From positions 22,768,942 to 22,832,941 of the forward strand of contig JAJEKV010000002.1 of the NCBI GenBank assembly GCA_021234155.1: a DNA stretch of 64,000 nucleotides. The letters are read 5' to 3'. Of this stretch, positions 1 through 20,600 are shown in pieces (within the stretch, counting starts at the first letter, position 1; the number at the start of each line of letters is the position of its first letter). The position numbers were made by a program, and so were the translations under genes. The DNA comes from Isoetes taiwanensis (lineage: Eukaryota; Streptophyta; Lycopodiopsida; Isoetales; Isoetaceae). Below the pieces are notes generated by a model. The model saw nothing but the letters and a program-made list of their open reading frames with translations, had not been told where the DNA came from and did not search any database.

Positions 1-405
1 TCTTTGACACTGACAAACAAATGGTTTTTTATCTTTTTGACACAACTTTTATTATTGGTCATCTAATAATTGATGAAAATGTAGATATTGTTTTTGCCAT
101 AAGTTTGGTGCAATTTAGTTCTTAGTTATGGTTTATTTTTGTCACTACTTTGTTAAAATATTGCTAAACCTTTGATGTTATTTCTGCACAAACTTGTCAC
201 AATCTTGGTAGAAAATACTTTTTGTGACAAAAATTGGAGCCACAATCTTGCCACAAAGGCTGTCACTATTGTGTCAACTTTGTGACCAATGATCACGACA
301 AGTGTAGCATCAAGATTGTGACACGAAGTGCCATTTAACAGGTTATGCTTGTGTCAACAAAGTTGACGTTATACCTGACACTATTGGTACCATCCTCTAG
401 TAGTG
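1..405. mobile_element. Right terminus and subterminal repeats of a CACTA (En/Spm-type) transposon
   Basis: The segment ends with GGTACCATCCTCTAGTAGTG, whose reverse complement begins CACTACTAGAGG, the form of a CACTA-superfamily terminal inverted repeat. The 400 bases inside this end are packed with short direct and inverted copies of TTGTGACA, TTGTCAC and TTGACAC, as expected of subterminal transposase-binding repeats. No coding sequence is seen here, and the rest of the element lies left of the window. Coding sequence for a NIF-like domain starts almost directly outside the terminus, so the insertion may have split that gene. The 3-bp target duplication cannot be tested without the left end. 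Confidence 0.55.
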
Positions 406-412
406 GGTTTTA

Positions 413-1011
413 GGCAAGTTTTATGACTTGAAAGAGAGGATCCCTGCATCGGGCGAGCCAGAAGTGACCATCCAGAAATTGAACCATCAAAAGTTCGCAG
501 TTTCCAGGTCTGGATTTCAGAAGTTCTTAGAATGGTGTTTTTCAAAATTTGAGATTGCATTGTGGTCTAGCATGGCTAAGAGTAATGTTGACTTGTTGAT
601 GAGAAAGTTGCTGCAAGAATATAAGGGCAGATTTCTTTTTATTTAGAATCAGGATGACTGCACCAACACAAAATTAAAAGTGGTTAATAAGCCAATTTTC
701 CTTAAGGATCTGTCCAAAGTGTACCAGAAATTTTGGAGATACCAGGTGACAAACACATTGTTGATAGATGACAGCAGATATAAGGGTTACGCCAACTGCA
801 GGAAACACAATGATATGTCCAAATAGTTTTGCTCCGCGACGGTTGTATTCCAATTTCCTTTTGGAGCAACTCAAACCATGGTTTGGAGGGACTTCATTTT
901 GCCGCGAAAAAGTGTGCCGACTTATGTGAAGGAATATCAAATGTGGAACATGTGGGATTACGAAGAGTCAGCATTTGCATGAAAATGCTCGACAAGTATT
1001 TTCATAAATGA
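413..1011 (+). pseudogene. NIF/FCP1-like (HAD superfamily) phosphatase domain fragment
   Basis: The frame reads the core of an NLI-interacting-factor/FCP1-type protein phosphatase. In order it shows a block ending FLEWCFSKFEIALWSS, then RFLFI, NQDDCTNT, KPIFLKDLSKV and TNTLLIDDSRYKGY. In this HAD family the KPIFLKDLSKV lysine and the paired aspartates of LLIDDS are catalytic or Mg-binding. The N-terminal DxDxT nucleophile motif is missing; it would lie beyond the CACTA terminus at 405. A TAG at 644-646 sits where relatives usually carry a tryptophan (F-I-W-N-Q-D), and a second stop lies at 824-826, so the copy is dead. An Ulp1-like domain follows on the same strand, 170 bases on. Family recognition is from motifs only. 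Confidence 0.7.
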
Positions 1012-1179
1012 ATCTTGTAAAACTCTTTGAAAGTCAATATAAGTAAAAAAAATTCTATGATATGTGTTGTACTTTTTCAATTTAAAATATTTGAATGGAT
1101 TGTGAGCAAATGTTCTCGTGTGTGTTTAGAACTAGAGATGATAGAGCTTCGGCAGTCCCTGACTATCTAAAGCCAAATA

Positions 1180-2055
1180 CACATCTGGAAGTGGTGTTGA
1201 GTGGAACTGAAACTGTCGTGATTAGCTCCACCGACATCAAAATTTTGGAAGCTGATACGCAGTGGTTCAATGTCAATTGATCCTCCTCTTCTCAAGGTGA
1301 TACTTTCATCTGATTTGTGATCATCAGGATTGTGCCAGATGATATGCATATGTTTGCAGATACATGGAATACTACTTGATTCTCCAAGGAATGAGCCATC
1401 TCTTTCATTTCTTTGACCCTCTTTTTCACTCGACATTGTCCAAGGACACAAATAGTTACAAAACAATAAGGAAACATGTGAATCTGGATAAGTGCCAGTA
1501 CATGTTTTTGCCTGCTTGTGATGGACATCACTGGACCTGTTTTCTGATTATAAGCCACGCGTGTCTCGCACAGAGATATAAAACCAGGGATATATCACTT
1601 TGATAACTCGGGCTTGCATGGCAGAAGCAGACATATTGAGAGGTTAGTGCTTGCTCATTGCATTTTGCTGTTGTGGCACAATGACAACAAACTTTGAGTG
1701 CAGGTTCCTGGAATTGCTTGGACACAATAATTTCAGCTTTACAACCTCATATGTTGTGAAAATTTCCAGAACGCCTCTTCAAACCGATGGTCATTCATTC
1801 ATGTGGCCCTGCCGTATGTTCGTTTATGCACAAATTTGTGAGGGGGTACTTGAAAGGAGTGAATATATTGTTGCCTGATCTAGTAAGTCAACTTAAATCC
1901 AGCAGACAAACCAAACTCTGTTATTGACAAAGTGTGGTTAACTGCAGGTTGTGGACATTTCAGACCAGGATCTAGTTGATGTTAGAGTGTTCATGCTTGA
2001 AGTTTTAAGATTAGAAGCAACAAAAGTGAACCGAGAGGAACATATGTATTGGGAA
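1180..2055 (+). pseudogene. Ulp1-type (C48) cysteine protease domain, broken
   Basis: SUMO-protease-like domain. The start VVISSTDIKILEADTQWFNV matches the usual opening of Ulp1 domains. CQYMFLPACDGHHWTCFLI carries the catalytic His next to Trp, IYHFDNSGLHG carries the catalytic Asp, and QTDG-HSCGPAVCSFMHKF carries the catalytic Cys (codon 1802-1804). Two short GT-AG introns fit the frame, 1643-1703 and 1883-1947; the next exon starts VVDISDQDLVDVR and may end at a donor at 2056. The copy is inactive: there are frameshifts between the His and Asp motifs, and a four-base duplication (TTCA, about 1792-1803) lies directly before the Cys motif. It could be one fused gene with the NIF domain upstream, or a separate captured fragment. 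Ulp1 genes are often carried by plant DNA transposons. Confidence 0.75.
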
Positions 2056-4195
2056 GTATGTAGGTGCATGAGTCACCTCGCACTTAAATCATCAGATATC
2101 TTTCTTATGTACATAATTGTTATTGTAACCTCGATTCATTTCAATGAAAATTCATATTCAATTCATCTCACAAACAAAGGAATCAAGTGTTTCAGAAGAA
2201 TTCAAATCTTCAAAAGAAATCAAGACAAACTCATTTTCACAGCTCACATGAGTTCTGAAAACTACAGAATGGTTTTACATTTCATCATCATCAGAAAGAA
2301 CTTCGGGTAAATTCTGTAAAATTTTCTCCTCATCTAAAGGATCCAACCTATATACAGTCCTGTTTTGACGTTTAGTTGGTGGCATGTGAAGTCCGATTGC
2401 ATGATGACGTGTTGTGAATACTATGCCTAAATGCGTCTTTTTTTGCAAAGATCATAGCTGACAGTTGATCTTGCGCCCTTCTTGTAATACATACCTTCTA
2501 TGACACTATCACCGGCGAGGTACCATATTCCATTGAGTTGGAAGTCTTCCTCCACTATCCATTTTGGTTTTGTGCACATCAGAATCCAAAATTCAGAACC
2601 CTCATCATTCCCTTTCGGAGCAACGACAGCAAAATTATCACCAACTCTAAGTGCCTCTGCTAACATCGTGGGATTGGAGGAGAACAAGGACCTGCTGGAT
2701 TTACGGTCCTCAATGTCAGCATGCACATTGGAGGATGGTACAATAACTTGAAGTTTCCAATCATCAACGTAGTGCTTGTTCACACAACTGTCCCACATGC
2801 CATCCAAGCAGAGGCTGCGAGAAGCATGAAAGTTCCCTCATGTGCAACTACAATGGAGATTCGTGGATTGAATGCATGTACACAATGGATCTGCGCCTAG
2901 TGTCCAAAAATCCTTTCGCACCCCATGCTTTCTTTCTATCTATATCCTCCACCTTGACTTCCCAAAAGAACCTTTTTATATTCTTCCTCTTATTTGGTTT
3001 GAGATGTGTTCATCCTTTCGGATGTTCCACAAGTAAACATCTCTTTAAGAACTTCTACCACTTCATGAGCATTACCCAATTTTATGCTGCTGTATTTTAA
3101 TTGCAGTTGTCTTAACCATCTCTTCAACTCAGCAGCTTTGCCATCGTGTTCACCTTTCCCGTGGTTAGAACCAAAAAAATTCCACATCATATAGACATCA
3201 GTGTCGTTTGTGTACCTAGCCACAAAGTAAAATGGTCTAGAAGCCTTGAATTGAGATGCTGCACCATCTGAAAACACATAATGTCTCTTTGGAACCCTTC
3301 CTTTCTGCTCCAGATATTTGTGGTGCTTCATGAAGCAGTGTTGCACGAACAAAGTATCGTGTTCCCTATCATCTGATACATAGTAATGTGTTTCCTTGAT
3401 AATCTCATCTGCCACTGAGTCATACTGATATGTTATTTGAACCAAAATGGTAATCTGGTTATTGACCCCAACCCAACGCATCGACTGCACCTCCTCTTGT
3501 TCCTTGAATGTATAGTTCTCTGCAAAATCCACTACCGAGAGACATGCATCTGCTGGGAGATTCTCCAGAAGCTCCTTAAACTGTTTTGCCTGCCATTGGT
3601 ACCTGAAATTATGCAGTGGAAAGATTTTTAGACGCTCTTTCAGTTTATCCAGAAGCTCCTTGGGTTCTGTCTCATTGTACTGATGAGTCAGTCTCCTACC
3701 AGAACTCGAGACGTTGTCTTTTTCATAGTCAATGTACTCCCATTTCACTTTCCTACTGCCACTTCCTTCCATGGGACAGGTCTGAAACTTCTTGATTCCA
3801 CACAGCTCACAATTTCCAAGGATGCACGCCTTCTTGTGAAACTCATCTAATTCACCCTTTGGACACAATATAGATCTCCACAAGCTTCCTCAGTACTTGC
3901 AATTTTATCTTTGGTGTGCCCCGCATTGACCAAGTTCATGTGATCTACAAACATCGCAGTGCAAGTGCAATTCTTAGGATGTTTGGTTCTCATCCCATTG
4001 AGTCCATCCACTAGCATTTGCATCCTCACGCGTCTTTGAATGCAACAAAGCAACTATTGAAGTCCTTCAATTTCACAACAAACTGGGGTTTTAGCTTCTC
4101 AAAAGCTCGAAGATCTAATCTTAATTTCTCGGATGTTGGTCCGTAAACCTCTTGAACAATAGCATCTCGCATGAAATGAACACTAAACTGTTAGG

Positions 4196-4960
4196 ATGTG
4201 TATACCACACCAAACCATGCACCATACCATGCCCCACACTCATCATATTCACTTAGCGAGCACCTTAGTGCTGTGTACATTACCACACATCACACCACAC
4301 CCCACCAGACACCACACCATTCACCACACACCATACACCAAATGGTGGAGTGTGGTGGTGGTGGAGTGTGGTGGTGGAGGGTGGTGGAGTGGGTGTGTGG
4401 TGGTGGTGGGGGTGTGGTGGTGGGGGTGGTGGTGGTGGAGTGTGGTGGAGTGGTGTGTGGTGTGGTGGTGGGGCGTGGTGGTGGGGGGGTGGTGGTGGTG
4501 GTGTGTGTAGTGGTGTGTGGTGCTATGATGTGGTGTGGTGGAGTGTGGTGGTGGTGGTGGTGTGTGGTGGTGGTGGAGTGTGGTGGGGGGTGTAGTGGTG
4601 GTGGTGTGGTGTGGTGTGGTGTTGTGGATTGTGGTGTGATGTGATGTGGTGGTGGTGGAGTGTGGTGGTGGTGGTGGAGGGGTGTGGCATGGGATGTGGT
4701 GGGATGTGTGTGCATGTGGTGGTAATGTGGTGGTCGCAAAGATGTGGTGGTAGTCTATGGTGGTGGGATAGATGGGGTGTGGTGGGGTGAGGGGGGAGAA
4801 TAAATAAAATTGAATCCACACATATCATACATTAACATGCACACACCCACATGACACCATGGACATAACGCAACCCACACCACACCACACCACACCACAC
4901 CACACCACACCACACCACACCACACCATCACGACACCACACATCACATCACATCACTTTT
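4196..4960. repeat. Inverted CCACA / TGTGG simple-repeat tract inside the intron of copy A
   Basis: CCACAC-type repeats (~4,200-4,335) are followed by about 400 bases of GTGG/TGG repeat (4,340-4,790), then by a pure (CCACA)n run (4,868-4,925). The left and right arms are complementary to the middle, so the tract can fold on itself. Long ORFs across it in several frames are low-complexity (Trp/Gly/Val or His/Thr/Pro) and are not genes. It accounts for much of the difference between this intron and the 0.55-kb intron at the same place in the second copy. Confidence 0.85.
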
Positions 4961-5153
4961 ATCCTATTTCGTCTGATATAAAAAATTTGCCTAGCCTGCT
5001 CTCATAAACACTTCTGAAATTCGTACACCCTGACAATAACTACATTCCTCTTCTAATCATTGGAAAAGGATCGGGTCCTAAATCCTCGTTCCTACGCCTG
5101 ATTTTTGGCGTTTCATTCCCAATTCGCCCAATTCAACAAGTTCATTCCGCAAC

Positions 5154-5492
5154 ATGGTAGGAGGGATGTTCAGAGATCACTACGGCTATTGTAGGGTGAG
5201 CGAGGAGGGCATTCGGCACATGTTAAACAGGGCTCGTGATCAATCTCTGAAGGTGGATATGCCTAAATCCACCTTCTTTGCTGATTTCGAATCCAACCTA
5301 AAGGCATACAACAGACTGGATGCTGGGCCTTCAATGGCTATGCTTGGAGTCAGATTGACAGGAAGAGAGCTCTTAGACAAGGTCCATCGCCTTATGTTAC
5401 ATCTTTGTCCGCAAGGGCGGTGGTATATTTGTTCTCGTCACTTGTCCGCCTCGACTCTGCAAATGGCGGGTTTTCTTGGCAGAATTGCGTGA
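5154..5492 (+). CDS. Unidentified coding-like ORF within the intron of copy A
   Basis: A 112-residue open frame opening MVGGMFRDHYGYCRVSEEGI and ending in GFLGRIA. It has a balanced, protein-like composition unlike the simple repeats beside it, and the frame stays open upstream of the Met with plausible sequence (NSPNSTSSFR). It lies on the strand opposite to the surrounding gene, between the simple-repeat tract and the first exon of copy A, so it may have arrived as an insertion. I do not recognise the family, and no motif suggests a function. It could be an exon of a captured gene. Confidence 0.3.
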   Translation: MVGGMFRDHYGYCRVSEEGIRHMLNRARDQSLKVDMPKSTFFADFESNLKAYNRLDAGPSMAMLGVRLTGRELLDKVHRLMLHLCPQGRWYICSRHLSASTLQMAGFLGRIA

Positions 5493-7058
5493 CTTACCAC
5501 CGGGGGATGCAGAAGCACGGCAAACCTCATCCTGTTAAATGGGATGACCGCAGAAAGCTTAGATGCTTTAATGCGTAAAACAATAATTTTGATGCACCAG
5601 TTCTCGAGCGATCATACCAAAGATTTCTGTTGTTTAGGAAATCATGCATGTAAATTTAGTTCTCGGGTACAGAGCTTTCAATGGAAAGCCAAATTTTGTA
5701 AAGCCAAATTTTGTAAGATCCTTTTTTTAATATATCATACTTTCCAACAGAGCTGTGCTTGAATCTGACAAAAAATTGTCTTTATTCAACAAAAATTTGT
5801 ATCTCGAGGATCGATTAGTTATCATTCTCAAATATTTTTAGACTGCATTACACACCCAAGTAAAAAGGAGTACTCAATTTTGGTCATGTTCTAATAATAT
5901 TCCAAACATTAAATATTGCATTTCAGACTAGAGTCAACTACACACAATTCACATGCTGCATACAGTACACCACAATCACTGTACAACACAATAACCACCA
6001 CATGCACCACCACACTAAGCACCATAACTAAGAAAACATGAATAATGTAAATAAACTAACCCTGTGATTCCTCCGGATAGTGGGCAGCATGTTCTTCTCT
6101 TACATTTCTCTCCAATCTTCTAGTTCTAACATCCTTTGTGTTAGGGAGACACTCGTGTTCTCAATCCAAAATTTTTGAATCTTTTCTATATGTTCATCCG
6201 AAATTGCATCGAATCTTTTAGCCCTCTTGTAAGAAACCCATTTCCCACCATTGTAATCGATCTCTTCCCTCTTTTTTCTTTGCCTTTTGCGGGTTTCTTG
6301 GGTGAACACCTAATACCTTTCCAAGATCTCGCCGGGCTGATTTTGTCACTTGTTTGAAGACCGCGACGGTGTGGTACTGAACATTGCAAGGCAGCTATTC
6401 TTGGCTGCTAGGCAGTCATTGCTGATAGAGAGTTTGACAGTCTGCATGGAGTCCCAGAGGCTCCTTATAACGATGCTCTTGGCTTCCAAATCCTTTAATT
6501 CTTCGCCTATGAATTTTTCCAATGTTTTATCCCTCAAAAACTCAAGTAAAATTTCTTTCTTCGTGCTATCCTCCATTCTTTTGGTCTGTTTATGGAAAGA
6601 CGTTAGCAAATTAAGGACAATACGGCATTTACTGCTTGCACTTCTTGATGAACCGGATCCTTCTGCCAATTCTCAAGAAGAACCGGATCCTTCTGCCAAT
6701 TCTGCAAGCTCCAATTTTTCTTCTCTTCTTCTTTTCCTCTGGCGTCTTTTCTTCAACATTTCTTGTTCCTTGGTTCTTCTTTGTTTTCTCCTGTCTGAAA
6801 TGCCGGTTTGTGGACAGATTACCTCATTGACATCCATATCCACAATGGATTGGAGCTTGCAGCAGGGAGGGAGCCAAAGAACAGGACGTAGGCAAAGAAT
6901 AGGAAGGGGCCAAAGAATAGGAATTTGAATTTGAATTTTAGTTTTTGAAATTAGAATTTCCCCCACAAATTGGGACTCTATTCTTAAATACCGGCAGCTG
7001 AGCGGTGCCATAATTATACTTTCATACCACAAAAGTGGTGGATGCAACGCCACATTTT

Positions 7059-7077
7059 GGGGGGACAGGGGGGACAG
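7059..7077. repeat. G-rich direct repeat upstream of copy A
   Basis: Two units of GGGGGGACA stand in tandem about 220 bases upstream of the first Met of copy A. The same 18-base string occurs at 20,406-20,423 upstream of copy B, and both are followed by similar bases (AAT-GG ... GCTTT-ACCC). It could be part of a shared promoter or an element end, or a G-quadruplex former. Confidence 0.6.
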
Positions 7078-7515
7078 CCGAATTGGAACACCACAGCGTG
7101 CTTTTACCCCCAACTGAAGCCATGGTTGGAGGGCTTGAGAGACTCAAATCACATTGTAGACTATGTTTGAGATCATCCTATTACTAATTGGTTGGATGAT
7201 ATTTCTGATTCAATAATTGAATTGTTGACAAAAAGAATGGTTTAAGCAGAAGTTGAAGAACTATGAACTCCATGTTGTGAGTTTATGCTAAAATGCTGGA
7301 AATCCTCTTATTCAAGGACAGATCCAATGAGTGATCTGCATGTACTATTGCTCTTGAATGAATATAATCTGCTCTGGTTTGGAAGTGTATCAATTGTAAT
7401 GAGTTTAGTTTTAGCATTACCTTTGACAGTATTAAGTAGGAGTTGCAGAAAAAGAGACAACAACAAAATTTCAGAGACAACAGTATGTTCATCACAGTAA
7501 AATCGATAACTTTTA

Positions 7516-7712
7516 AAACGGATCATTACTAACTCATGAAAGAGCTTACAGAAAAAAGTTTACTTGGAATTTATATTCTGCATTCCTTTACATACACCAA
7601 AATTTATCATAAGTTTACATAAAATGGATCATTACTAACTCATGAAAGAGCTTACAGAAAAATGTTTACTAGGAATTTATATTCTGCATTCCTTTACATA
7701 CACCAAAATTTA
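7516..7712. repeat. Tandem duplication, 106-bp unit
   Basis: The stretch starting GGATCATTACTAACTCATGA occurs twice with a period of 106 bases and only a few differences. There is no coding content. Confidence 0.85.
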
Positions 7713-7779
7713 TCCATACATAGCCGAGAAAATAAGAAGATTTCAGATATATTTAGCCGAGATCCTATTAAGCCACATC

Positions 7780-8040
7780 CTATTTGTGAAGTCGAGGCAT
7801 TTTCAGCGCAACAATAAGGTCATTGTCCTCAACTACAACCATCTCCAGAAGGCGCTCGTCAGTTGCATGCACACGGTCTATCCACTGCTGGACCTTAGAA
7901 GAGACTGCAGCTCCTTTTCTCTGTAACTTATTCACCTCCAGACAAGAAAACTTGGCCACAATCTTAAGTTTCCTGCCCGGATTGCTGAAACCGATTGATT
8001 CCTCCATGGGTGCCCTGGCAGTGATTTTGAACCTGGCCAT
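7780..8040 (-). CDS. Small uncharacterised protein, 86 aa
   Basis: Open frame from ATG at 8,040 to the stop at 7,780, beginning MARFKITARAPMEESIGF and ending ALKMPRLHK. The composition is ordinary and soluble, with several Lys/Arg and a Val-rich stretch (MVVVEDNDLIVAL); there is no signal peptide or membrane segment. I chose this Met because a TATA-like ATATATAA lies at about 8,172-8,180, which would place the transcript start just upstream; the longer frame from 8,205 begins beyond that TATA. The leader holds a duplicated GAAGAAGAGTGATCGATG unit. I do not recognise a family. It may be a real orphan gene or chance; the TATA position is the main support. Confidence 0.35.
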   Translation of the reverse strand: MARFKITARAPMEESIGFSNPGRKLKIVAKFSCLEVNKLQRKGAAVSSKVQQWIDRVHATDERLLEMVVVEDNDLIVALKMPRLHK

Positions 8041-8170
8041 CCTAAGTCGAAGAAGAGTGATCGATGTCGTCGAAGTCGAAGAAGAGGAGATGGGTGATCG
8101 AAGAAGAGTGATCGATGCAGCAGAAGACTGTTGCATGCATAATTGAATGCAGGCCTCAAAAGTCGAGCCC

Positions 8171-8180
8171 AATATATAAT
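8171..8180 (-). promoter_or_regulatory. TATA-like box upstream of the 86-aa ORF
   Basis: Reads ATTATATATT on the minus strand, about 135 bases upstream of the ATG at 8,040. Inferred from sequence and position only. Confidence 0.35.
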
Positions 8181-8205
8181 AAGTAACTTTAAAAAAATAA
8201 GGCAA

Positions 8206-11200
8206 CTAGCAGAATTGCAGGGTTGGGAAGAAGGCTAGGCAGATGGGTTTGTGTCGAAATTTTAATCGTATTAATTTGAATTTCGGCGGCATGCTAAGAG
8301 AATGTGTATTAATATACGAATGTTACGTTGTTCATCCCTTATTGGGTCCCTGATAGGAAGAATCCACGTCACTGCGGCGTCCTAGAAATGTACGGTTTCC
8401 CCTCGTACGACGAAGTGGGGATTACCACAGGTTTTTTAGCGGCTATATTAGCAGGGTTTTGTTCGGCTGGAAGTCCGCCGTCGTGATTGGCGACACGATC
8501 GACGTCTGATTAAGCCCATTTTCAGGGAAATAAATTTTTTTACCTATTTCAAAATGGAGTAAGCAACGATTTCGTAATCAACAGTTTGATTGAAAAGCAC
8601 ATGCATGCTACATTTTGGATGACGACTAACATGGATTGGAGCCTGTTGGATTGAACGACAATCGATTAATTTGTCTAGTACACATAGCAGTTATCCAGTA
8701 CAGAATACAAGTTCTATTATAAGACTGTCGAAGACTGGCTTCCTATCGACTTTGGTGTTGCTTGACCTCAAAGCTCTTTCACTATATTTATTTGAGATTA
8801 AAGATCAATAAAGATATCACCATCCCTAAAAAACGCCCAAGAGTTGATGGCATTTACAACACAAAATTTTCAATTAGAGTACCAAGTATTATGCATTTCA
8901 ACCAAGTTTTGCTCAATGTTCCTAAAGCTGAAAGCGAGGTGATAGAATAAATAATATGCATATATATAACGAACCGATGTGAGGGTCTCTTGCTCAATGG
9001 CTTATATTAGTCTAGAAATTTTCTTTTCTCAGAACTTCATTAGCCTTAATGGCTTCAGGCTAATGGCTTTTAATAATTTGAAGTAATATTTGAAGCTTTG
9101 ACTTGGAGCATTGGCCCAGACTCTATCCACTTGAGACGGAACCCGATAAACGTGCCTTCTTTTGAATTTTGATGGGAGCTTAACAGGAGGTCGAAATCCA
9201 CTATTATCTGTGGAGTACATTGTAGCCGTTATGGGTTGCAAAATTGGATCTGAAGCTTCAGGGGATGCTATATCTCCAATTTGGGTTGACATCTCTTAGA
9301 TTGTTGGATGATAATCCTTTATAGAATAGAATAGAATAGAATAGGGTTTTTAGCAAGTAGTGTTTGCACAATAAATGCATTGAAGGCTGCAATACAAATA
9401 TTAGATGTTACTATAGACAAGGAAACAATTATGCTTTATGTACAAGTTGTAAACTAAAGATTTTTCCACGACTTCCAATTGTAATATCAAACATGCCAAA
9501 ATATGGATACAGAGCACGCAAGTTAATTAAGAGAGTACCATTTATAGAACTTAGGCGTTATCTTTTCACCAACAATTCAGTTGGAATATAACTTTAGGTT
9601 ATATAAATGTTGACTAAAATATAAACACATAAACTCTAGAACATAGGCAAATACAACATGAATTGGGTTTTTTGATTGACTAAAATATAAACACATAAAA
9701 TATAAACACATAAACTCTAGAACATAGGCAAATATAACATGAATTGGGTTGTTTGATTGATGTGTGGCTCTCTCTTGCTCATATGAATTCGGTTGTCTCA
9801 GACGTTGCTCTCTTTTGTTCATAAAAATGCCAACGCATGCATATTGTGCGCATTACAATTTCCCCTTGCTAAGCTAAATATCTTCCTCGATGCTATGTTT
9901 TTGTTGTCTCAACTGCTCTAAAGCATAGAATCCATGAAATCCCCTTCTACTAAAGATAGGTGCCGACATGCAAACAACTCACAATGAGAGCCAAAGCAAT
10001 CCGTTCTCCTGCAACACGTTCTTATCTTTAATTACTTTGAAGATAGCCCTCTTTCTGCATCTATTGCATCGCATCACATCATCCTTTGCAGCGGAACTTT
10101 GAATCACAATGACAAATTACAACAAACAACATCTACAATATTGCTTATAGGCCATTCACAATATAATTATTATTACCAACTAGCTTGCACCAACACGTTG
10201 CACATGGTTCTAATAATATGGGATAAATTTGTTTTAAACAACAATTTAAATGTTTTTAAATAATGCGCCATAGAGATTTATTCCCTTTTCTTAACTTGAT
10301 TAAAGATGGAAATAAGAAAGCAAAAAGAGACCCGATTACAGAGAAATAATGGCAATTCAGACGTCTTTATGCACATTTTTTACTCTGATAAAGAAGTTTC
10401 TTGGCAGTACAAAACAATGGCCTTGCAGGATAGCAGGCTATGTGCAGGACCAACCATAATCTTTAAGGTCCAAAAATGCTTGCAACAAAGCAAATGTGTT
10501 CCTAAGGCCCTGTCTGTTCTGATCGGCCATGTACATAATTTCCTTTTCTTAGAGTCTTGGGTTGTGCTTAGAAACACTGTCATCTACACGGAATTTTACC
10601 AAAAAAACCACTTTGCAACCTATAATGTTTTTGTTCTTTACCACCCCGGCACCACTTCCCATGTCTGTTATTTGCTTTCCCAGCAAATAATAGTTGTGAA
10701 TGCTATTTTGCGCCCTCTCTGGACATGGCTTATAACTACGTCATATAAGATATGAGGAGGATGTTAGACGTAGGTAACATTCTGCTAACAGGGCCATGCT
10801 TGGATTATGCCCTTAAACGAATGAATGTCTGCTGCAAAGAAACACAAGAAAGAATGGAGCAAGGAAATGCATGTGTGGTAACGAAAGGTGCACTTTAATG
10901 ATCTCTATATGTCATTGCTCCATCTCTAATTTGCTGAGAAGACATGAGCAAATCTTACTGTTCCAGCACACAGAAAGTTCTAATGTTCACTAATTTATAG
11001 CAACGATTTAAAAAATTACGGCTTTGTCTCTACGTATGCGCTGTTATTGAAGCTAGCAGATCTGTGACCTGTACCATATATCTTATAGGGGAAGCATAAC
11101 CTTTAAATGCTAGATGAGTTATCGCTTTTAGATGTTTCTTCAGTAGATGGAGTTTACTTGGAAATAAGCATTTTCATTGTGCAGATCTGAAGCACCAATG

Positions 11201-12030
11201 TAAGTTAAAACTTGATCTAAGCATGAGAGAACCTAAATTTCTACTACTTTCTGGAGACCGCATGTTCATCTGCTGAATCTTCAATCTTATCTAGATTGTA
11301 TTATATAAATTTATCTTTGCATTACTATTAGTCAATCATATAGAAATGAGAAAACATGCCTGCAGTAGGAAAGATCGATCCCTGGAATTGCCCCTGTGAA
11401 AGCCCGATTGAAATGGTCCAAAGCCTACAAAACCTCCTTCCAAGGTCCTAAATTTCACGTATCTGGAATTTCTCAGGAGATGCAACAAAATATATATTGC
11501 TAGTAAAATGGAGAAAGATCATGAAAGCAACAAAGAAGGACAGAGGTTCATTTGGGTTGCCAACTCAATAGATGAGTCGCTTATACGACATAGGCTGAGA
11601 ATAAATGCGTTGAAATTGAGATCTTGTTCGGACAAAAATATCAAAGTAAAATGAAGAAAAATCTCAATAACTTACAAGGAAAATTATGGTCAGAATCCAG
11701 AAAGAAGGGAGGCATCAATGATCTTCATCAGGAGCCGACTATACAGCAATGGATCTTTGAGAAGACTAGAAACTACACAAAACATAAGTATTGAAGTCGT
11801 TTTACTAAAAAAAGAACCAGAAAGGATGAGAAATACCATCTATTATAGTTGTTTTTCTGCCATCGCTGATTCCGGCATAAGGATCCCTTCCTTGCATATG
11901 AGTAACAACACTCGCAGGAACTATGATCTCATCCCCAAATCTAAGCTCAGCCTTATTATTAAGCTTATTTTCCATTTAGTATTTCAACTCCGACCAGATT
12001 TTCTAAGCCGAGAGTGGAAGGAGAATATGT
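8206..12030. other. Intergenic, AT-rich, no supported gene
   Basis: No homology-bearing frame is recognised. It contains a short (AGAAT)n run at ~9,318-9,342 and a local duplication at ~9,605-9,750 (two copies of a block with AAATATAAACACATAAACTC, the second with an internal repeat). Open frames at 9,029-9,292 (minus, 87 codons) and 10,306-10,755 (plus, 149 codons) lack recognisable motifs or splice context. Confidence 0.5.
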
Positions 12031-12143
12031 AGCACAATAACAGGGGGTTACTTTTAGATTTTTATACGCTTTTTCACATGGTTTTTCTATGATTTCGTTG
12101 TTGTATTCGTTGAGGTGTACTAAATAGTATTTCTAGAGTGCAC
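12031..12143. repeat. Copy of a dispersed foldback-element arm
   Basis: The block from TAGCACAATAACAGGGGGTT to the end TTTCTAGAGTGC matches, in reverse complement, the left arm of the small foldback element at 54,178-54,668. Its outer end (GCACTCTAGAAATA in the other orientation) is the same. The partner arm is not evident to the left, so this looks like a partial copy. The core AATAACAGGGGGTT also occurs in both arms of the long inverted repeat at 12,632-13,914. Confidence 0.6.
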
Positions 12144-12199
12144 CATTTATGGGCCGTTGATTTTCGTTGATGGGAACAATCCGAGGGTTGTTGTCTTTC

Positions 12200-12345
12200 T
12201 CTGCATGTGTTTGTGCGTGCATGTGCACATGCATGTGCATGTGTGTGCATGTGCATGTGCATGTGTATTGTGCATGTGCATGTGCAAGTGCATGTGCATG
12301 TGTGCATGTATGTGCATGTGTGCATATGCATGTGTACTTGCCCTC
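12200..12345. repeat. (TGCATG)n-type microsatellite
   Basis: Alternating TGTGCATG/TGCATG units over about 145 bases. Cys/Met/Val or His/Thr-rich frames across it are artefacts. Confidence 0.9.
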
Positions 12346-12631
12346 TTGGATTCTTATTGCTGGAGTGAATTTTACTACCACGAGATGGATTTTTTGCTCA
12401 CACTTACAAAGGTATTTGTTTTTTAATGTTTCTTCAGTTAGCATAATGTTTTTTTTTTTTTACAAGGTATTGGTTTCTGATTCTACAATGTAGTCTTTGC
12501 AAAACCCCCTTTTGTTTCCTTCTTAAGATTTGCTGCAGATTCAAGTTTAGGCCCTCTGTTTGCTTCCAACTCTTGGATATTCCTGGCTGCCGGATTGTTC
12601 ATAGTAGCCAGCCTTTAGCTTCAATCAACAA

Positions 12632-13914
12632 ATGGATTCTTATGCACACAACATGCGGATTATTCCACGCCCTTTTCCATGTAAAGATCGGTCAGCGGTG
12701 GCCACAAGAATGCATTTATATTGTAGGTTTGGAACTTTAATCAAGCCGTAAAGGTGAATCATGCATTACCTTTAAGCTAGAGGCGGAGCATCAAAATCAT
12801 ATGGATTGATAAACAATGGTGTCATTGTGAAAAGAAATAGTTGTAGCGGAAGTAACAATATGTAGCATAATAGCGAGGGGTTTTCTTTGTGTTTGCAAAC
12901 TTTATGACTTCGAATAAGGGATCAATCTGCTCTATCTTTATGGTAAATTTTACTTATGTTCTATTTGTTTTATTGTGATCAAATTCAAAAGCTACAGGTG
13001 ATGAAAGCCTCAAATGAATTCTAGTTTTGTTACGATTTGAATTCTAAAGTTTTTGTCACCGGGGGGGCGTCCTAAAGGCCCAGAAGAGGCCAAAAAAATT
13101 TTTTTGCAACACAAACCATTAACATCCAACATATAAAAATTAAATCCCCCAACACATAACAACCAACACATAACAACCATTGACATTAACAATCAACACA
13201 TAACTACCATTGACATTAATTAACACAACCATTGGGTCCAACACATTTAAATTAAAATCCCCCTTAATCCCCCTTTGGTAAGGGGGATTTTAATTTAAAT
13301 GTGTTGGACCCAATGGTTGTGTTAATTAATGTCAATGGTAGTTATGTGTTGATTGTTAATGTCAATGGTTGTTATGTGTTGGTTGTTATGTGTTGGGGAT
13401 TTAATTTTATATGTTGGATGTTAATGGTTTGTGTTGCAAAATTTTTTTGCCCCTTCTGGGCCTTAGGGACGCCCCCTGCAGACAAAAAACTTTAGAATTC
13501 AAACCAGAACAAAACTAGAATTCATTTGAGGCTTTCATCACCTGTAGCTTTTGAATTTGATCACAATAAAACAAATAGAACATAAGTAAAATTTACCATA
13601 AAGATAGAGCAGATTGATCCCTTATTCTGGAAGTCATAAAGTTTGCAACACAAAGAAAACCCCCTGTTATTATGCTACATATTGTTACTTCCGCTACAAC
13701 TATTTCTCTTTCACAATGACACCATTGTTTATCAATCCATATGATTTTGGATGCTCCGTCTCTAGCTTAAAGGTAATGCATGATTCACCTTACGGTTTGA
13801 TTAAAGTTCCAAACCTACAATATAAATGCATTCTTGTGGCCACTGCTTGACTGATCTACGTGACATGGAAAAGGGCGTGGAATAATCCGCATGTTGTGTG
13901 CATAAGAATCCATT
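12632..13914. repeat. 1.28-kb near-perfect inverted repeat (foldback/MITE-like)
   Basis: The left arm begins AATGGATTCTTATGCACACA at 12,632. The right arm ends at 13,914 with its exact complement, TGTGTGCATAAGAATCCATT. Each arm is about 640 bases and the arms look roughly 95% identical by eye, with scattered single-base changes and small indels. The centre (about 13,255-13,290) is AAATCCCCCTTA, a loop of about 12 bases, then TAAGGGGGATTT. No protein is encoded; the ORF at 13,301-13,495 is low-information. A transcript would form a very long hairpin. The element class is uncertain. Confidence 0.9.
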
Positions 13915-14701
13915 ATATCATACGGGCTTATGTTATCCGAGCAAGCAAGTCTACCTCAAAAAAAAAAAGAAAAAACAGCTGTCTTCTACTTAACCTAAGA
14001 CCTGCGTCCAATCCCCATTTGTAAAGGAAAGCTCATTTTGTATGCCAGGTTCATGAAGCATACCTATAGAAGATTTGTCGTTGAAATCATTGCATCTTCA
14101 TAACTGTCCTCTGCTTCAGACTTTGAATCGTCATTACTTATCTCTTTTGCTTCACCTTCACTGGCAGTTTCAAGTCCGTCGCCCTCTCCATCCATCGAAT
14201 TCGAGCAAGCAGAAACAGAGGAGGGAAGCAGAAGTGATTTTCAAGCACTTTCTAATTTTCATGGCCGTCCGATGCGAAATTAAGAAATCTAATGGTTGCG
14301 ATTAAAAACAGCTGACGTGGCATGACACGTGGCATAGCTAGGAATGCAGGAAAGTGGGCAAGGGGGGTTAGGCAACCCTGCTAAAAATCAATATTTAGAT
14401 AGATGAAATTCAATAGTTATAATCAAATGTTCTATGATGATTTTAATATATATTGCAAGCCTTTGCTTTGCCTAGTTATGCACTAGATCCAAATTGTTCA
14501 ATCTCTTGCCTAGGCTATAAATACTTCACACTTGTATTACAAGAAGAAAGAACTTCCCACACAAACAATTTCAAGTCTTTAACAAACTTCAATACTTATA
14601 ATTTAACTATCAATGTTCAACTGGTCATTAAACCATTGGATATAAATTTCATTGGCTATTGTAGCAACGGGATTGACCCTATTACTGTAGCTGCATTGAC
14701 T

Positions 14702-15704
14702 GGATTCGACTTATATCCCACAGGCTTGCTGACAATATGAAGCCCTTAGACCATTGAACCTTCAAATTGTTCAATATTGCTTTTCTTTTAGGTTAAACAA
14801 CCTTAACTATTTCACCATGACTACAAGTTCAACACCCTCATATTTTCTACAAGGGGAGCCAAGATATGTATCATTCCCCCTTCATGTGATATTCATGACA
14901 CTTAAAGTATGCTAAAATCAATAGGTAGATAACAACTTAGTATGCTAAGATCTTAGACTTCACAGAAATGCATAGGCTATATATTCAATGACAGTTGATT
15001 GCATAACTTCAGCTAGATAATTTGGCAAGGAGATCACAAAAGTCACTAAGCAAATTCAACCATACACTCCCACTCCATTGTCTGTTGACTGCATTGACTG
15101 GATTCAACTTATATCCCACAGGCTTGCTGACAATATGAAGCCCTTAGACCATTGAACCTTCAAATTATTCAATATTGCTTTTCTTTTAGGTTAAACAACC
15201 TTAACTATTTCACCATGACTACAAGTTCAACACCCTCATATTTTCTACAAGGGGAGCCAAGATATGTATCATTCCCCCTTCATGTGATATTCATGACACT
15301 TAAAGTATGCTAAAATCAATAGGTAGATAACAACTTAGTATGCTAAGATCTTAGACTTCACAGAAATGCATAGGCTATATATTCAATGACAGTTGATTGC
15401 ATAACTTCAGCTAGATAATTTGGCAAGGAGATCACAAAAGTCACTAAGCAAATTCAACCATACACTCCCACTCCATTGTCGGTTGGATTTTGCATTATTT
15501 GGATTCGACTTATATCCCACAGGCTTGCTGACAATATGAAGCCCTTAGACCATTGAACCTTCAAATTATTCAATATTGCTTTTCTTTTAGGTTAAACAAC
15601 TTTAACTATTTCACCATGACTACAAGTTCAACACCTTCATATTTTCTACAAGGGGAGCCAAGATATGTATCATTCCCCTTCATGTGATATTCATGACACT
15701 TAAA
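14702..15704. repeat. Tandem array, ~400-bp unit, about 2.5 copies
   Basis: The block starting GGATTCGACTTATATCCCAC recurs with its TTATATCCCA at 14,711, 15,109 and 15,510 (periods 398 and 401). The third copy is cut short after TTCATGACACTTAAA. Copies are almost identical, pointing to recent duplication. A TATA-like CTATAAATAC lies at ~14,513-14,522 just before the array. No coding potential is seen. Confidence 0.9.
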
Positions 15705-15901
15705 CAATAAAGATGTTCTCAAAACTTATTCTTTAACATGTTCATTATACCCTATATTGTCCTGATGTGTTAACTGATGATGAAGAAAAATGTCACAAAA
15801 TGTCACAATATATCTGAATGCCAGGTTCATTGATTCAAATTTAGAATGGGCTCTTGAGGATGAGCATGAAATTTTCCTATTGAAGTTTTGAATTCAATGG
15901 T

Positions 15902-16325
15902 TCAATGGTTCTATAGTTAAATTGTATTGAATTGTTTGATATTTAGAACCTAATTATTGTCATTATTGTGAACCTTTAGTGCCAATAGTTGAGAACCAAA
16001 GGAAATCCTAACAAAGGTTAAGTCGAATATGGATAAATTAAGAAAATCTTTAAAACGAATGGATCAAGGAATGGGTCTTCATGGCAAAGGGGATCAATGG
16101 TTCTATAGTTAAATTGTATTGATTGTTTGATATTTAGAAGCATTGCACAAGAACCTAATTATTGTCATTATTGTGAACCTTTAGTGCCAATAGTTGAGAA
16201 CCAAAGGAAATCCTAACAAAGGTTAAGTTGAATATGGATCAATTAAGAAAATCTTTAAAACGAATGGATCAAGGAATGGATCTTCATGGCAAAGGGCTTT
16301 CTTCTTCCCCTTTGCCATGAAGACC
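15902..16325. repeat. 192-bp direct duplication ending in a stem-loop
   Basis: TCAATGGTTCTATAGTTAAA begins at 15,902 and again at 16,094. The two copies differ by a small insertion and a few bases. The second copy ends CTTCATGGCAAAGGG, followed after ~11 bases by its inverted partner CCCTTTGCCATGAAG, giving a stem of about 15 bp at ~16,281-16,322. Confidence 0.85.
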
Positions 16326-16934
16326 CAATCCAACCTAAATAAAAAATGCAAATGTTTATATAACAATGGTTTTTTTTTTCATTCATGCTTGTGGGATATA
16401 TAAACCCTGGAATTGATTTAATCGAATGTTACTGTTCATTTGGTTTAGGGTTCATTTGTTACAGGGCCGAAACCTGCAATACAACCAGGTCAATGAATCA
16501 AGAATACTTGTTAGGTTCTGCTACATAAACAACTCTGATGGTTTTATGCCTAAGATATTTCGAACACAGCAACAAGGCAATAATTTTGGGCCTGGGTACA
16601 TGGAACACATCAGTAAGGAAACTTCAGCAATGGGACACAATTACAGATACACAAATACACAATTCTCATATTTCCAAAATATAGCAGGGATATAAGTCTG
16701 ATATTCACATATGAATTATATCTGATATTCAAGATGCAACGAACAGTACAATCTAAGTCCAAAATTTGACTTCAAATAAGTGTTTTCTTGATTATGAAAA
16801 ATCAAACATGAACAACAAAAAAAAGAGTTACATCAATCTATTTTCTGGCGTTGCAGACCCTTCAATCTGCTTGTCTTATAGCTTCAAGTATAATGCTCCT
16901 CATCTTATCAACTCATTCTTCATCACTTGGCACA

Positions 16935-19900
16935 TCAGGCATCTCTGATTTTCTCTGCATCATTCTCATCAAGTGTGAATATCTCAGAACTCCCTTTGAC
17001 ATGATGCTTAGCTCGTACCATGGAAACTCGAATAGCGCAGACTTGTGTTGCAAACACTCTGGCTTTTTCTTCATTCCTACAAAGTTCGTATGATGATCGG
17101 GTTCTTTGAAGCTTTCTATAATATATGCCTTCTAGGACACTTTCACCTTTTAAAAACCATACACCATTCTTTTCAAAATCTGACTCATTAGAATGCATCT
17201 CTCTTGTGCATTTCACCATCCAAAAATCAGATCCTTCTTCATTATCTTTGGGTGCAACAACTGCAAAGTTATCACCCACTTTAACTGCACTAGCTAAGAC
17301 ATCTGACTTAGTGGAGAATAGAGCTCTTTGAGACTTCCGGCTCTCCACCATATCAGGTTCAGCTGAATTGGTAGGCTCTACTACCACTAACTCCCATTCA
17401 TCAACGTATGCCTTGTTCTCACATCTATCCCAATGTCCATCCAAGCAGCAACTACAAAAGCATGATAACTTGCGAGTATGCAACATTGTGTTGGACTGAA
17501 GATTGAAGGCATGAACACAATGAATGTTTCTCGTATCCTTTATTGTGTTTGCGCCCCGCGCCTTAGACCTGTCAACATCTGTAACTTCCCAAAAATATCT
17601 TCTTACAGTATCTTGTTGTGAGTAAGTGGATGAAATTCCATGGGAAAATTTTTTTGCAGCTGCCTCCATAACGTCATGTGCATTTTCAAGCTTTATCTCA
17701 GGAAACAAGAGTTGCATCATTCTAATCCACCTCTTCAGTTCTGCAGCCTTGCCATCGTGCTCGCCTTTACCGTGGTTTGAACCAAAATAACTCCACATCA
17801 TCGTGCACTGTGTTTCAACCGAAATGGGAGAACAAAATACATTGGACGAGCTGCCTTAAATTGTGATGCAGCTCCATCAGACCAGACCCAATGCGTTTTG
17901 GGTTTTAGCCCTTTGGCCTCCATGTACCTGAAATGCATCTTAAAACAATGTTGTACAAAGAGAGTATCATGCTTCTTGTCATCAGAGATATAGAAGTGTG
18001 TTTCTTTTACGACTTGCCCACTTTCATCCACATGATAAGTAATGTGAACAAGGATTGTTACCTGAATGCTGCACCAATACTGAGATTGCACTTCAGTACG
18101 TTCTTTGAAGGTGTAGTTTTCGGCAAAATCCACCACTGAGACCACTACATCTGAGGGTAGATTTTCCAGCAGCTCACGAAATTGCTTGTCTTGCCATTTG
18201 TACCTAAAGTTATGCAAAGGAAACCGCTTTAATCTATCACGTAACTTCTCCACAAATTCTCTAGAAGTGGTCTTTTTGTATTGATGCTTCAGAATCTTCC
18301 TTGGTTTCCCATTCTTGCCCAATCCTGCACCCTCATAGTCCAAATACTCCCAATTCAGCTCTGCATCACTCAATTCAAGAGGACATATATGCAACTTGGA
18401 GATGCCACAATTCTGACAAGTACCATAAAGGCAGTCCTTCCTATGGAACTCATCATCAACTTCTTTTGGACAAACAATGCACCTTTATAACTCATGTGTT
18501 GAAGAGAATATTAACGCGTGAGCATTACAAGTGCACGTATGGTGAGGTTCACATACACTACAAGTACATTCACAAGGTTCAGAATGCTTCCTTCTCATTG
18601 TTTTGAATGCATCAAGCAGCATTCCAAGCCTAACATGATGAATACAACAGCATGTATTATAGTCTTTTAGCTTCACCACAAACCATGGTTTTAACTTTTG
18701 AAAAGATCTTGCTCCTACCTTAGCTTTAGGGTATTCTTCTTTGAACCGTTCGTACAATTGCATCTGTAAGAATATATGTGTTAGCATGCAAAATAACTCT
18801 CAAAGTATAGCACAAAAGAGGAATACAAACCATAACTACTACTGTATACCACTGACTACTACAAACCATAACTGTTACTGTATACCACTTACTACAGTCT
18901 TCCACTTACTACTACCACTGTAGTTCCAAGAGTGCACTCCAACTATGTTTAAAGCACACACCATTATGGCTGCACCCGAACTATGTTGAAACACTCACAC
19001 CATTATATAGTTGCACTCAAACTATATATGGTTTGAGATCCACTATATCTCCAAGAATGCACTCGGTTTGAAAACAAACCACTTATAGTTGGAAAACAAC
19101 CATTGAAGATCAAGGGCACAAATGAAATTATAGTTAAAGACAAGCCACTATGGCTAGACTGTAAACCATTGTAGCTCAATAATTGATGCAGCAGAACTAT
19201 AAAGAGATATACCTGATATAAACTTTTAATCCAACCACTATAGCAAAAATCGTTATTGAAAACCTCAACTATAAAAATCTCAAAGGAAGAGATAAGAAGA
19301 GATACCAACCTGAGATTGTTCCAGATAATGTGCTGCATGCTCCTCTCTAATATTTCTTTCTAGTCTTCTAAATTTTACATCCTTAGTATTTGGAGAAACT
19401 CTAGTGTTTGAGGTCCAAAATGTTTGTACAAGTGTAATAATTGAATCTGAGATAGAGTCACACCTTTTAGATCTTTTATAATACACCCACTTTCCTCCAT
19501 TGCAATCAATTTCTTCCCCTGTTTTTTTCTTAGCAAATTGAAATATTTCTTGGATGAACATCAAGTAGCTTTCCAATTTTTTCTCGTTACTCAAATTCTC
19601 ATTTTCTCCACCAACCGCCATAGCCAAACAACTTTTTGGCAGCCAAACAATCCAAATTTATAGATCAAGTTTCCACGGTCTTAATAGACTCCCCGATGTT
19701 ACTTATCATTTGGTTCTTTTGCTTTTAAGTCCCCTCAAATCATCTCCCACAATTCCATCCAATGCCTTATCTTTGAATAAAGTAATTTAGAATCCCTTTT
19801 TTCATTTGCACACTCATATGCTTAGACTGCTTCAAGAATGATTCCACCAGATTCACACCCACTCTCCTCTGCGTGGCTATGCTTCTTTCTACTCCAAAAC

Positions 19901-19980
19901 ATGTATTTAATCGAGAAACCAATGCATCTTCATTTTTTTTTTTCTCTGGCGTTGCCTTTTCCTCTCGGTTTCCTCTTCTC
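16935..19980 (-). pseudogene. DFAEN-type DDE transposase-like gene, copy B
   Basis: Homologue of the gene at 2,275-6,836, about 60-65% identical in the core by eye. One exon runs from ATG 19,621 to a donor at 19,310 (MAVGGENEN..., with EEIDCNGGKWVYYKRSKRCD). A basic N-terminal extension matching copy A is readable in broken frames up to ~19,980. After a 546-base intron, exon 2 starts at 18,763 and carries KLKPWFVVKLKDY, the Cys cluster CECTCSVCEPHHTCTC, the second cluster DCLYGTCQNCG, VVDFAENYTF, WSDGAASQFK and NHGKGEHDGK. C-terminal are a third Cys cluster (CFCSCCLDGHWDRC) and an SH3/BAH-like part (VGDNFAVVAPKDN...GESVLEGIYY). It is broken by a TAA at ~18,483-18,485 and a one-base frameshift near 17,810. 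Metazoan genomes hold proteins with similar DFAEN and SDG-SQ-K motifs (recollection). The function is inferred. Confidence 0.65.
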
Positions 19981-20405
19981 TTGTTCTTTTCTTCCTCATT
20001 CCTGAAATTTTTGCCTTCGTCAGGTCGCTAGTCCGGACCACGAATCCGATTCCATTAGTTCAATCCCTGATTCCGATTCCATTTCTTCAAGAAAAACACA
20101 TTCAATTTAAATTATCTGCCAATGCCAAATGTTAGGAAGGATTCACAATTGATTAGGTCATGCAATGTTAGGAAACATGCAATTGATCAGGTAATGCAAT
20201 TGGATCGAGCAACCTGATCCTGCCGTGCTCCCAATTTTGCATTTCCCTCCATACACCAGAATTAGTAATTACCACGATTCTTGCTCTGCTAATAGAACAA
20301 ATTTCCTAATTAATGCAATTTGGTATTTTTTTAGTATTAATGCCTACGTGACTCCATCTAACCACTTCTTGACCTGGGACTTGACCTACATTTCAAACTA
20401 TTCTA

Positions 20406-20423
20406 GGGGGGACAGGGGGGACA
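20406..20423. repeat. G-rich direct repeat upstream of copy B
   Basis: GGGGGGACAGGGGGGACA, identical to the string at 7,059-7,076 and in the same position relative to the gene, although the sequence between motif and gene is not conserved. Confidence 0.6.
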
Positions 20424-20600
20424 ACTACAATGGCCCGCTTTACCCTGCATCAACCCAAGAATATCATCTATTTGGATAAAAAAAATCACAAGCTAAGGAT
20501 CTTTAAGGATTTTAAAGGATTTTAAAGATTTTTAACATATTTTATATGAAATACGTTTTTAAAGATTTTTTTCAAAAAATTTAAAAATCTTCAAAAAATC

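Follow-up and report, generated by a model that had tools for sequence, protein, structure and literature searches.

The Sola superfamily of DNA transposons is characterised, in PMC10741241, by a DDD transposase, 4-bp target duplications, terminal inverted repeats (TIRs) of 11-1124 bp and a size of usually 2-9 kb, exceeding 15 kb in some elements, with the moss Physcomitrella among its hosts, and Sola1 is listed for the same moss in PMC9033089. A 21.5-kb Sola1 element of the brown alga Ectocarpus bears a second gene on the opposite strand, encoding a ParB-methyltransferase (PMC12477816), and AT-rich duplications are given for the Sola2 elements in PMC3627910. The DNA considered here is a stretch of 64,000 nucleotides of the lycophyte Isoetes taiwanensis (contig JAJEKV010000002.1, positions 22,768,942 to 22,832,941), referred to below as the window, which contains a homologous gene pair on the minus strand, copies A and B. 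We are highly confident that these are the decayed transposase genes of a large and abundant family of cut-and-paste DNA transposons, because they lie in elements that have TIRs, duplicate 4 bp of the target and number in the hundreds in the genome, and because an empty site was found. The same evidence supports an initial annotation, made from the letters of the window, which had seen in them the transposase genes of an unusual family; beyond it, the copies turned out to be parts of whole transposons, with element A nested in element B and with a second gene on the other strand.

The Isoetes elements share with Sola the 4-bp target duplications, the boundaries formed by TIRs and the occurrence outside the flowering plants, and both their TIRs of 11-27 bp and their complete lengths of 8,967-12,407 bp lie inside the ranges of PMC10741241. 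Like the Ectocarpus Sola1, they possess a second gene on the opposite strand, with a RING-NIF protein here in place of the ParB-methyltransferase there. On such anatomical grounds, with Sola set against the Isoetes elements by its description, a placement in the Sola superfamily would fit best and is regarded as somewhat probable. The kind of system is already known, and the two-gene RING-NIF cassette would be its new variant. In the open-access literature, no description of these elements was found, nor, by title, any paper on such elements in Isoetes, and searches with the motif strings of the transposase gave no related paper, likewise judged by titles.

Termini, target duplications and nesting of the elements

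The genome search covered the I. taiwanensis assembly of 1,658,258,908 bases in 1,110 contigs and returned at least 135 matches to copy A and at least 150 to the 228-amino-acid (aa) frame of copy B, numbers far above those expected by chance. Among the other A copies, the best reach 95-98% identity to copy A, and because of this identity the family was probably active fairly recently. For the determination of the ends, 12 fetched loci and the window were aligned and comprised three subfamilies, A, B and C. The left end GGGTAAAAGCACGC or its one-base variant is present in six of the seven A copies (L005, L006, L007, L008, L010 and the window), GGGTTGATGCAGGG in three of the four B copies (L012, L013 and the window) and GGGTCCAAGCACAA in all three C copies (L014, L015 and L016), the left part being absent from L009 (A) and the left end from L011 (B). 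All three subfamilies start with GGGT..GCA and finish with TGC..ACCC, and a TGTCCCC-rich sequence continues after the left ends of each. The right ends, inverted relative to the left ones, were located in L005, L007, L010, L014, L015 and L012, and imperfectly in L013. The TIRs are of 27 bp with 2-3 mismatches in A, of 26 bp with 3 mismatches in C and of 11 bp, perfect, in B, and the six complete elements measure 8,967, 9,049 and 10,537 bp (A), 12,407 bp (B), and 11,308 and 11,084 bp (C).

The initial annotation had proposed to search the whole genome for intact copies and for the inverted repeats and target duplications that flank them, and such repeats and duplications were found, a perfect 4-bp target duplication flanking all seven elements that could be read to two clean ends. 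Read from the flanks, these duplications are GCAT (L005), AGCT (L007), AGTT (L010) and TTGG (window) for A, ATGC (L012) for B, and GCCA (L014) and ATAT (L015) for C; the loci L006, L008, L009, L011, L016, L050, L051 and L052, with one or both ends missing or unreached, stand outside this count. With two mismatches allowed, the 26-base terminus has 521 matches in the genome and its reversed control has none; since left ends deviate from the pattern at about two positions, these matches are ends of both kinds and not elements. Searches for relatives outside this genome yielded none in the viral_contigs and genome_contigs collections, which hold viruses, bacteria and archaea and are uninformative for plants and animals, and for four viral_contigs found by a DNA pattern no tblastn match better than E 0.03 was present among the matches listed.

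The window portion of element A, delimited by blastn against L005-L010 and by the terminus common to six of the seven A copies, extends over 405..7109 on the minus strand, with its 5' (left) terminus GGGTAAAAGCACGC at 7109. The far terminus lies outside the window, at position 22745563 of contig C1018, 23.4 kb ahead of window base 1, and the nearest 9 kb of the about 20 kb between the window and this end gave no match to A or B longer than 120 bp in this orientation. Element B, also on the minus strand, is represented by its 5' part at 14383..20456, delimited by blastn against L011-L013 and by the terminus common to three of the four B copies (GGGTTGATGCAGGG at 20456), and by its 3' part at 7110..8205, which was recognised by comparison with L012 and adjoins the insertion of element A. 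Flank comparison places the left TTGG of the target duplication of A at 7110..7113 (minus strand); the second TTGG adjoins the right end of A outside the window, after which B resumes at position 9590 of L012, and the same site of B is uninterrupted in L012, which provides the empty site. Element A jumped into element B, because TTGG is found on both sides, B resumes beyond A and the site is uninterrupted in L012.

A probable insertion and some repeats were also observed within these elements. The window segment 8206-14382 (about 6.2 kb) interrupts element B, is missing at the corresponding point of L012 and is probably a later insertion. A unit of about 400 bp is repeated about three times at window 14669-15704, in the 3' part of element B, with ends near 15704, 15390 and 14992. 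A conserved frame of about 100 aa, resembling MARFKITARAPMEES, occurs at window 7780-8205 (minus strand), at 9489-9836 of L011, and in L012 and L014-L016; its copies are about 65-80% identical by tblastx and lie in both orientations relative to the transposase, with the other orientation in C, and it looks like another small mobile repeat nested inside these elements.

The transposase genes

The two copies carry the blocks VVDFAENYTF, SDGAASQFK and HGKGEHDGK where the initial annotation had read two diverged genes with these blocks, and their cores were found to be 58-59% identical. Transposase A consists of an N-terminal region with a basic N-terminus at 6031..6823 (minus strand; tblastn with the N-terminal frame of L007 as query) and of the DDD/E core, the Cys clusters and the C-terminal part at 2275..4182 (minus strand; open frames and tblastn), the latter split over several frames, the longest of which runs from 3889 to 2990 (299 aa) in the open reading frame list. 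Transposase B has its N-terminal region at 19283..20019 (minus strand; tblastn) and its core and C-terminal part at 16935..18799 (minus strand; open frames and tblastn), in two overlapping open frames that differ in phase, 18484-17798 (228 aa) and 17855-16935 (306 aa), owing to a frameshift near 17,840. The frames are broken in both window copies, neither of which is intact. The gap that separates the N-terminal part from the core in both copies is presumed, as in the initial annotation, to be an intron. A low-complexity GT/AC-rich array, with no strand assigned, was located by sequence comparison at 4343..4800, in the interval that separates the N-terminal region of transposase A from its core; GTGGTG-type arrays also occur, mutually inverted, in both arms of complete A elements such as L007, and these arms could pair.

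The candidate catalytic residues in the 299-aa frame of copy A are D121, D208 and E247 or D249, which correspond to D221, D306, E345 and D347 of L015. Together with the surrounding motifs they are invariant in 13 aligned Isoetes copies, picked for their long open frames, and E247 and D249 are equally conserved in this set. The D...D...E series at 119, 206 and 245 of the initial annotation consists of the same residues with an offset of two. The order D, D, E/D, taken together with the anatomy of the elements, points to a DDD/E transposase. The earlier view that the protein belongs to none of the hAT, MULE, CACTA, PIF/Harbinger and Mariner superfamilies agrees with the Pfam search, where no such family appeared among the matches up to E 10.

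Some uncharacterised animal proteins carry DFAEN or DYAEN, SDG-SQ and HGK-DG in the same motif order as the Isoetes transposase. They also share its N-terminal block, Cys clusters and SH3-like C-terminus, and their last motif keeps D and lacks E, so that a DDD triad would be favoured.

The opposite-strand RING-NIF gene

A second gene (gene 2), facing the transposase from the opposite strand, came to light when the 3' halves of the three subfamilies were compared. It is present in the four lineages examined, which are the three subfamilies and the diverged locus L054. Gene 2 is predicted to encode a RING-like finger followed by an FCP1/NIF-type HAD domain, the finger being weak in C. The frame 2034-3071 of L007 scores 60.5 bits (E 2.1e-16) against PF03031 (NIF), for which the cut-off is 21.8, and the RING-like finger upstream of NIF gives sub-threshold Pfam RING matches, with a best E of 0.06 for A, E 3.7e-5 for B and E 0.23 for C; a coiled-coil-looking stretch, judged by eye, is also situated upstream of NIF. 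Downstream of NIF, the A copies contain an Ulp1/C48-like region, spread over two frames with E 0.002 and E 0.09, both under the cut-off; the search of B and C loci yielded no such region. In the 3' halves, the NIF region of A matches that of B with E 3e-44 and that of C with E 5e-26 (39.8% identity over 98 aa), and it is 27% identical to that of L054 (E 1e-18), a locus which holds opposite-strand transposase pieces, each about 35-54% identical among the matches listed, and a RING-like part with E 1e-4. In the window, a decayed gene 2 of element A was traced by similarity to the L007 copy at 404..1927 on the plus strand, with the NIF/HAD region at 404 to about 930 and the Ulp1/C48-like region at about 1343-1927; this gene lacks its 5' part, the element being interrupted at 405.

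The association of the two genes was counted after the removal of 6 of the 135 core rows and 3 of the 120 gene-2 rows (two C1089 loci and second-exon rows). Among the matches listed, 29 of 117 gene-2 loci have a transposase within 12 kb, in all 29 cases on the opposite strand and in 28 downstream of the transposase, and the positional control with shifts of +/-200 kb or 500 kb gave 1 of 117 each time. No transposase lies near L055, a second diverged NIF locus, and so not every NIF gene of the genome belongs to these elements. NIF-domain frames at about 60-85 bits make up about two thirds of at least 151 genome matches (for example, C1032:10397763 and C1067:28147093), and L055 adjoins frames which by eye resemble a retroelement integrase.

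The catalytic motif of the HAD family is DxDx(T/V). The corresponding motif of gene 2 is DFNRVL in A, DFNGVL in B and DVNGVL in L054, and, judging by the chemistry of the family, its HAD domain may be a pseudophosphatase, because Asn replaces the second Asp. To our knowledge, a gene with RING and NIF parts kept over diverged lineages is unusual for a DNA transposon, and the open-access literature yielded no pertinent paper joining the NLI interacting factor with a transposase, the sole match being unrelated by its title.

In the proposed mechanism, the transposase would most likely bind the GGGT..GCA terminal repeats, and the acidic triad (D121, D208 and E247 or D249) of a putative RNase H-like core would excise the element, which would then be joined to staggered target cuts 4 bp apart. 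The autonomous copies would carry the convergent gene 2 with its RING-like finger and FCP1/NIF-type HAD domain, whose product would probably act as an accessory factor, either for the transposition or for countering the host control. A further-reaching version, put forward tentatively and as rather doubtful, is that of an undescribed DDD/E lineage of early land plants which needs both genes, with the RING-pseudophosphatase (NIF) protein as a dedicated partner; such a partner might, for example, recruit or modify the host ubiquitin/SUMO or RNA polymerase II machinery, allowing expression and transposition.

Alternative readings and meaning of the family

A number of observations weigh against the transposon reading, the two-gene cassette or the Sola placement. 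The L013 element has AAAG on both flanks and a right end deprived of its last CCC, and in the wider set of 32 loci the decayed copies L012 and L010 show K for E and A for the last D, respectively. None of the Pfam, NCBIfam, PHROG and PDB sequence searches produced a convincing counterpart of the transposase: the best matches are at the chance level (Pfam NID with E 0.0076 and NCBIfam RadB with E 0.0038, both below their cut-offs, PHROG with E 0.01 and PDB 4r03 with E 0.022), and the PDB sequences that came up, whether one protein or the 13-row profile was the query, were weak and apparently unrelated matches. Two AlphaFold2 models built from the window's own three rows have a mean predicted local distance difference test (pLDDT) score of 37 and 41; their strand order is compatible with an RNase H core, their confidence being too low for proof. 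As regards gene 2, one B fragment matches Pfam NIF with E 0.001, below the cut-off, and another has no match, and the Pfam NIF search of the C gene gave none. Among the matches listed, 88 of the 117 gene-2 loci have no transposase nearby. Within subfamily A, the median ratio of nonsynonymous to synonymous substitution rates (dN/dS) is 0.49 for the transposase, 0.45 for the NIF part and 0.43 for the RING part, below the shifted frames; however, 4 of 12 control readings of other regions fall at 0.49-0.54 and the pairs are non-independent, which makes this evidence weak, and conservation across the lineages is the stronger argument. As to the Sola placement, which is an anatomical one, Sola is described as DDD, whereas in Isoetes the residues E247 and D249 are equally conserved, and most of the seven Isoetes duplications, unlike those given for Sola2, are not AT-rich.

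A possible but less probable alternative to Sola is that the same transposon anatomy belongs to an undescribed DDD/E superfamily, outside Sola and the rest of the roughly 20 superfamilies in Repbase, as would agree with the absence of a convincing Pfam, NCBIfam, PHROGs or PDB sequence match and with the fact that the combination of GGGT..ACCC ends and a NIF gene was not met in the open-access texts available. We know of no Pfam model for Sola transposases, and therefore the missing Pfam match is uninformative on Sola, and the duplications, TIR range and size, being within the Sola description, as well as the Sola1 record in the moss, speak against a new superfamily. Membership in the Kolobok superfamily, with its ends 5'-RR..YY-3', is decidedly unlikely: the GGG..CCC ends and the 4-bp length of the duplication are compatible with it, and 3-5 bp duplications are mentioned for solo repeats of the KolobokP lineage in PMC9587614, but Kolobok is described in the same source as TTAA-specific and TTAA is found in none of the seven duplications here. 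The THAP domain, which belongs to Kolobok, was not among the Pfam matches. As for the plant MULE and CACTA elements, they too carry Ulp1-like proteases, to which the passenger Ulp1/C48-like region of the Isoetes subfamily A may be likened, but they differ by another transposase, duplication length and ends, and in Isoetes the C48-like region comes after the NIF domain.

That the window genes are domesticated host genes or members of a host gene family, with no transposon involved, is extremely improbable, since the long open frames of some copies (up to 674 aa) are outweighed by hundreds of dispersed copies and ends, many of them broken, by the fixed termini and target duplications, and by one nested copy. 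It is more plausible, yet still rather unlikely, that gene 2 is a captured fragment of a host gene that does nothing for the element, as pieces of host genes, Ulp1-like ones included, are common in plant transposons, the Ulp1/C48-like part of the A copies did not turn up in those B and C loci that were searched, and the within-family dN/dS is weakly informative; nevertheless, in A, B, C and L054 alike the NIF gene is the opposite-strand neighbour of the transposase, and a recent capture is disfavoured because this gene is common to lineages whose transposases are about 39-59% identical. The view of the 88 partnerless gene-2 loci as free-standing genes is disfavoured as well, as the three of them that were read all hold a decayed opposite-strand transposase, and the incompleteness of the matches listed is the likelier reason.

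The cut-and-paste transposon family proposed here has no match in the libraries searched, and its description would close a gap in lycophyte genome annotation, where the transposases and NIF proteins of these elements could pass for host genes. The RING- and NIF-bearing gene would offer a testable case of a mobile element with its own host-interaction protein, and the DFAEN family is a candidate link between orphan animal proteins and plant transposons.

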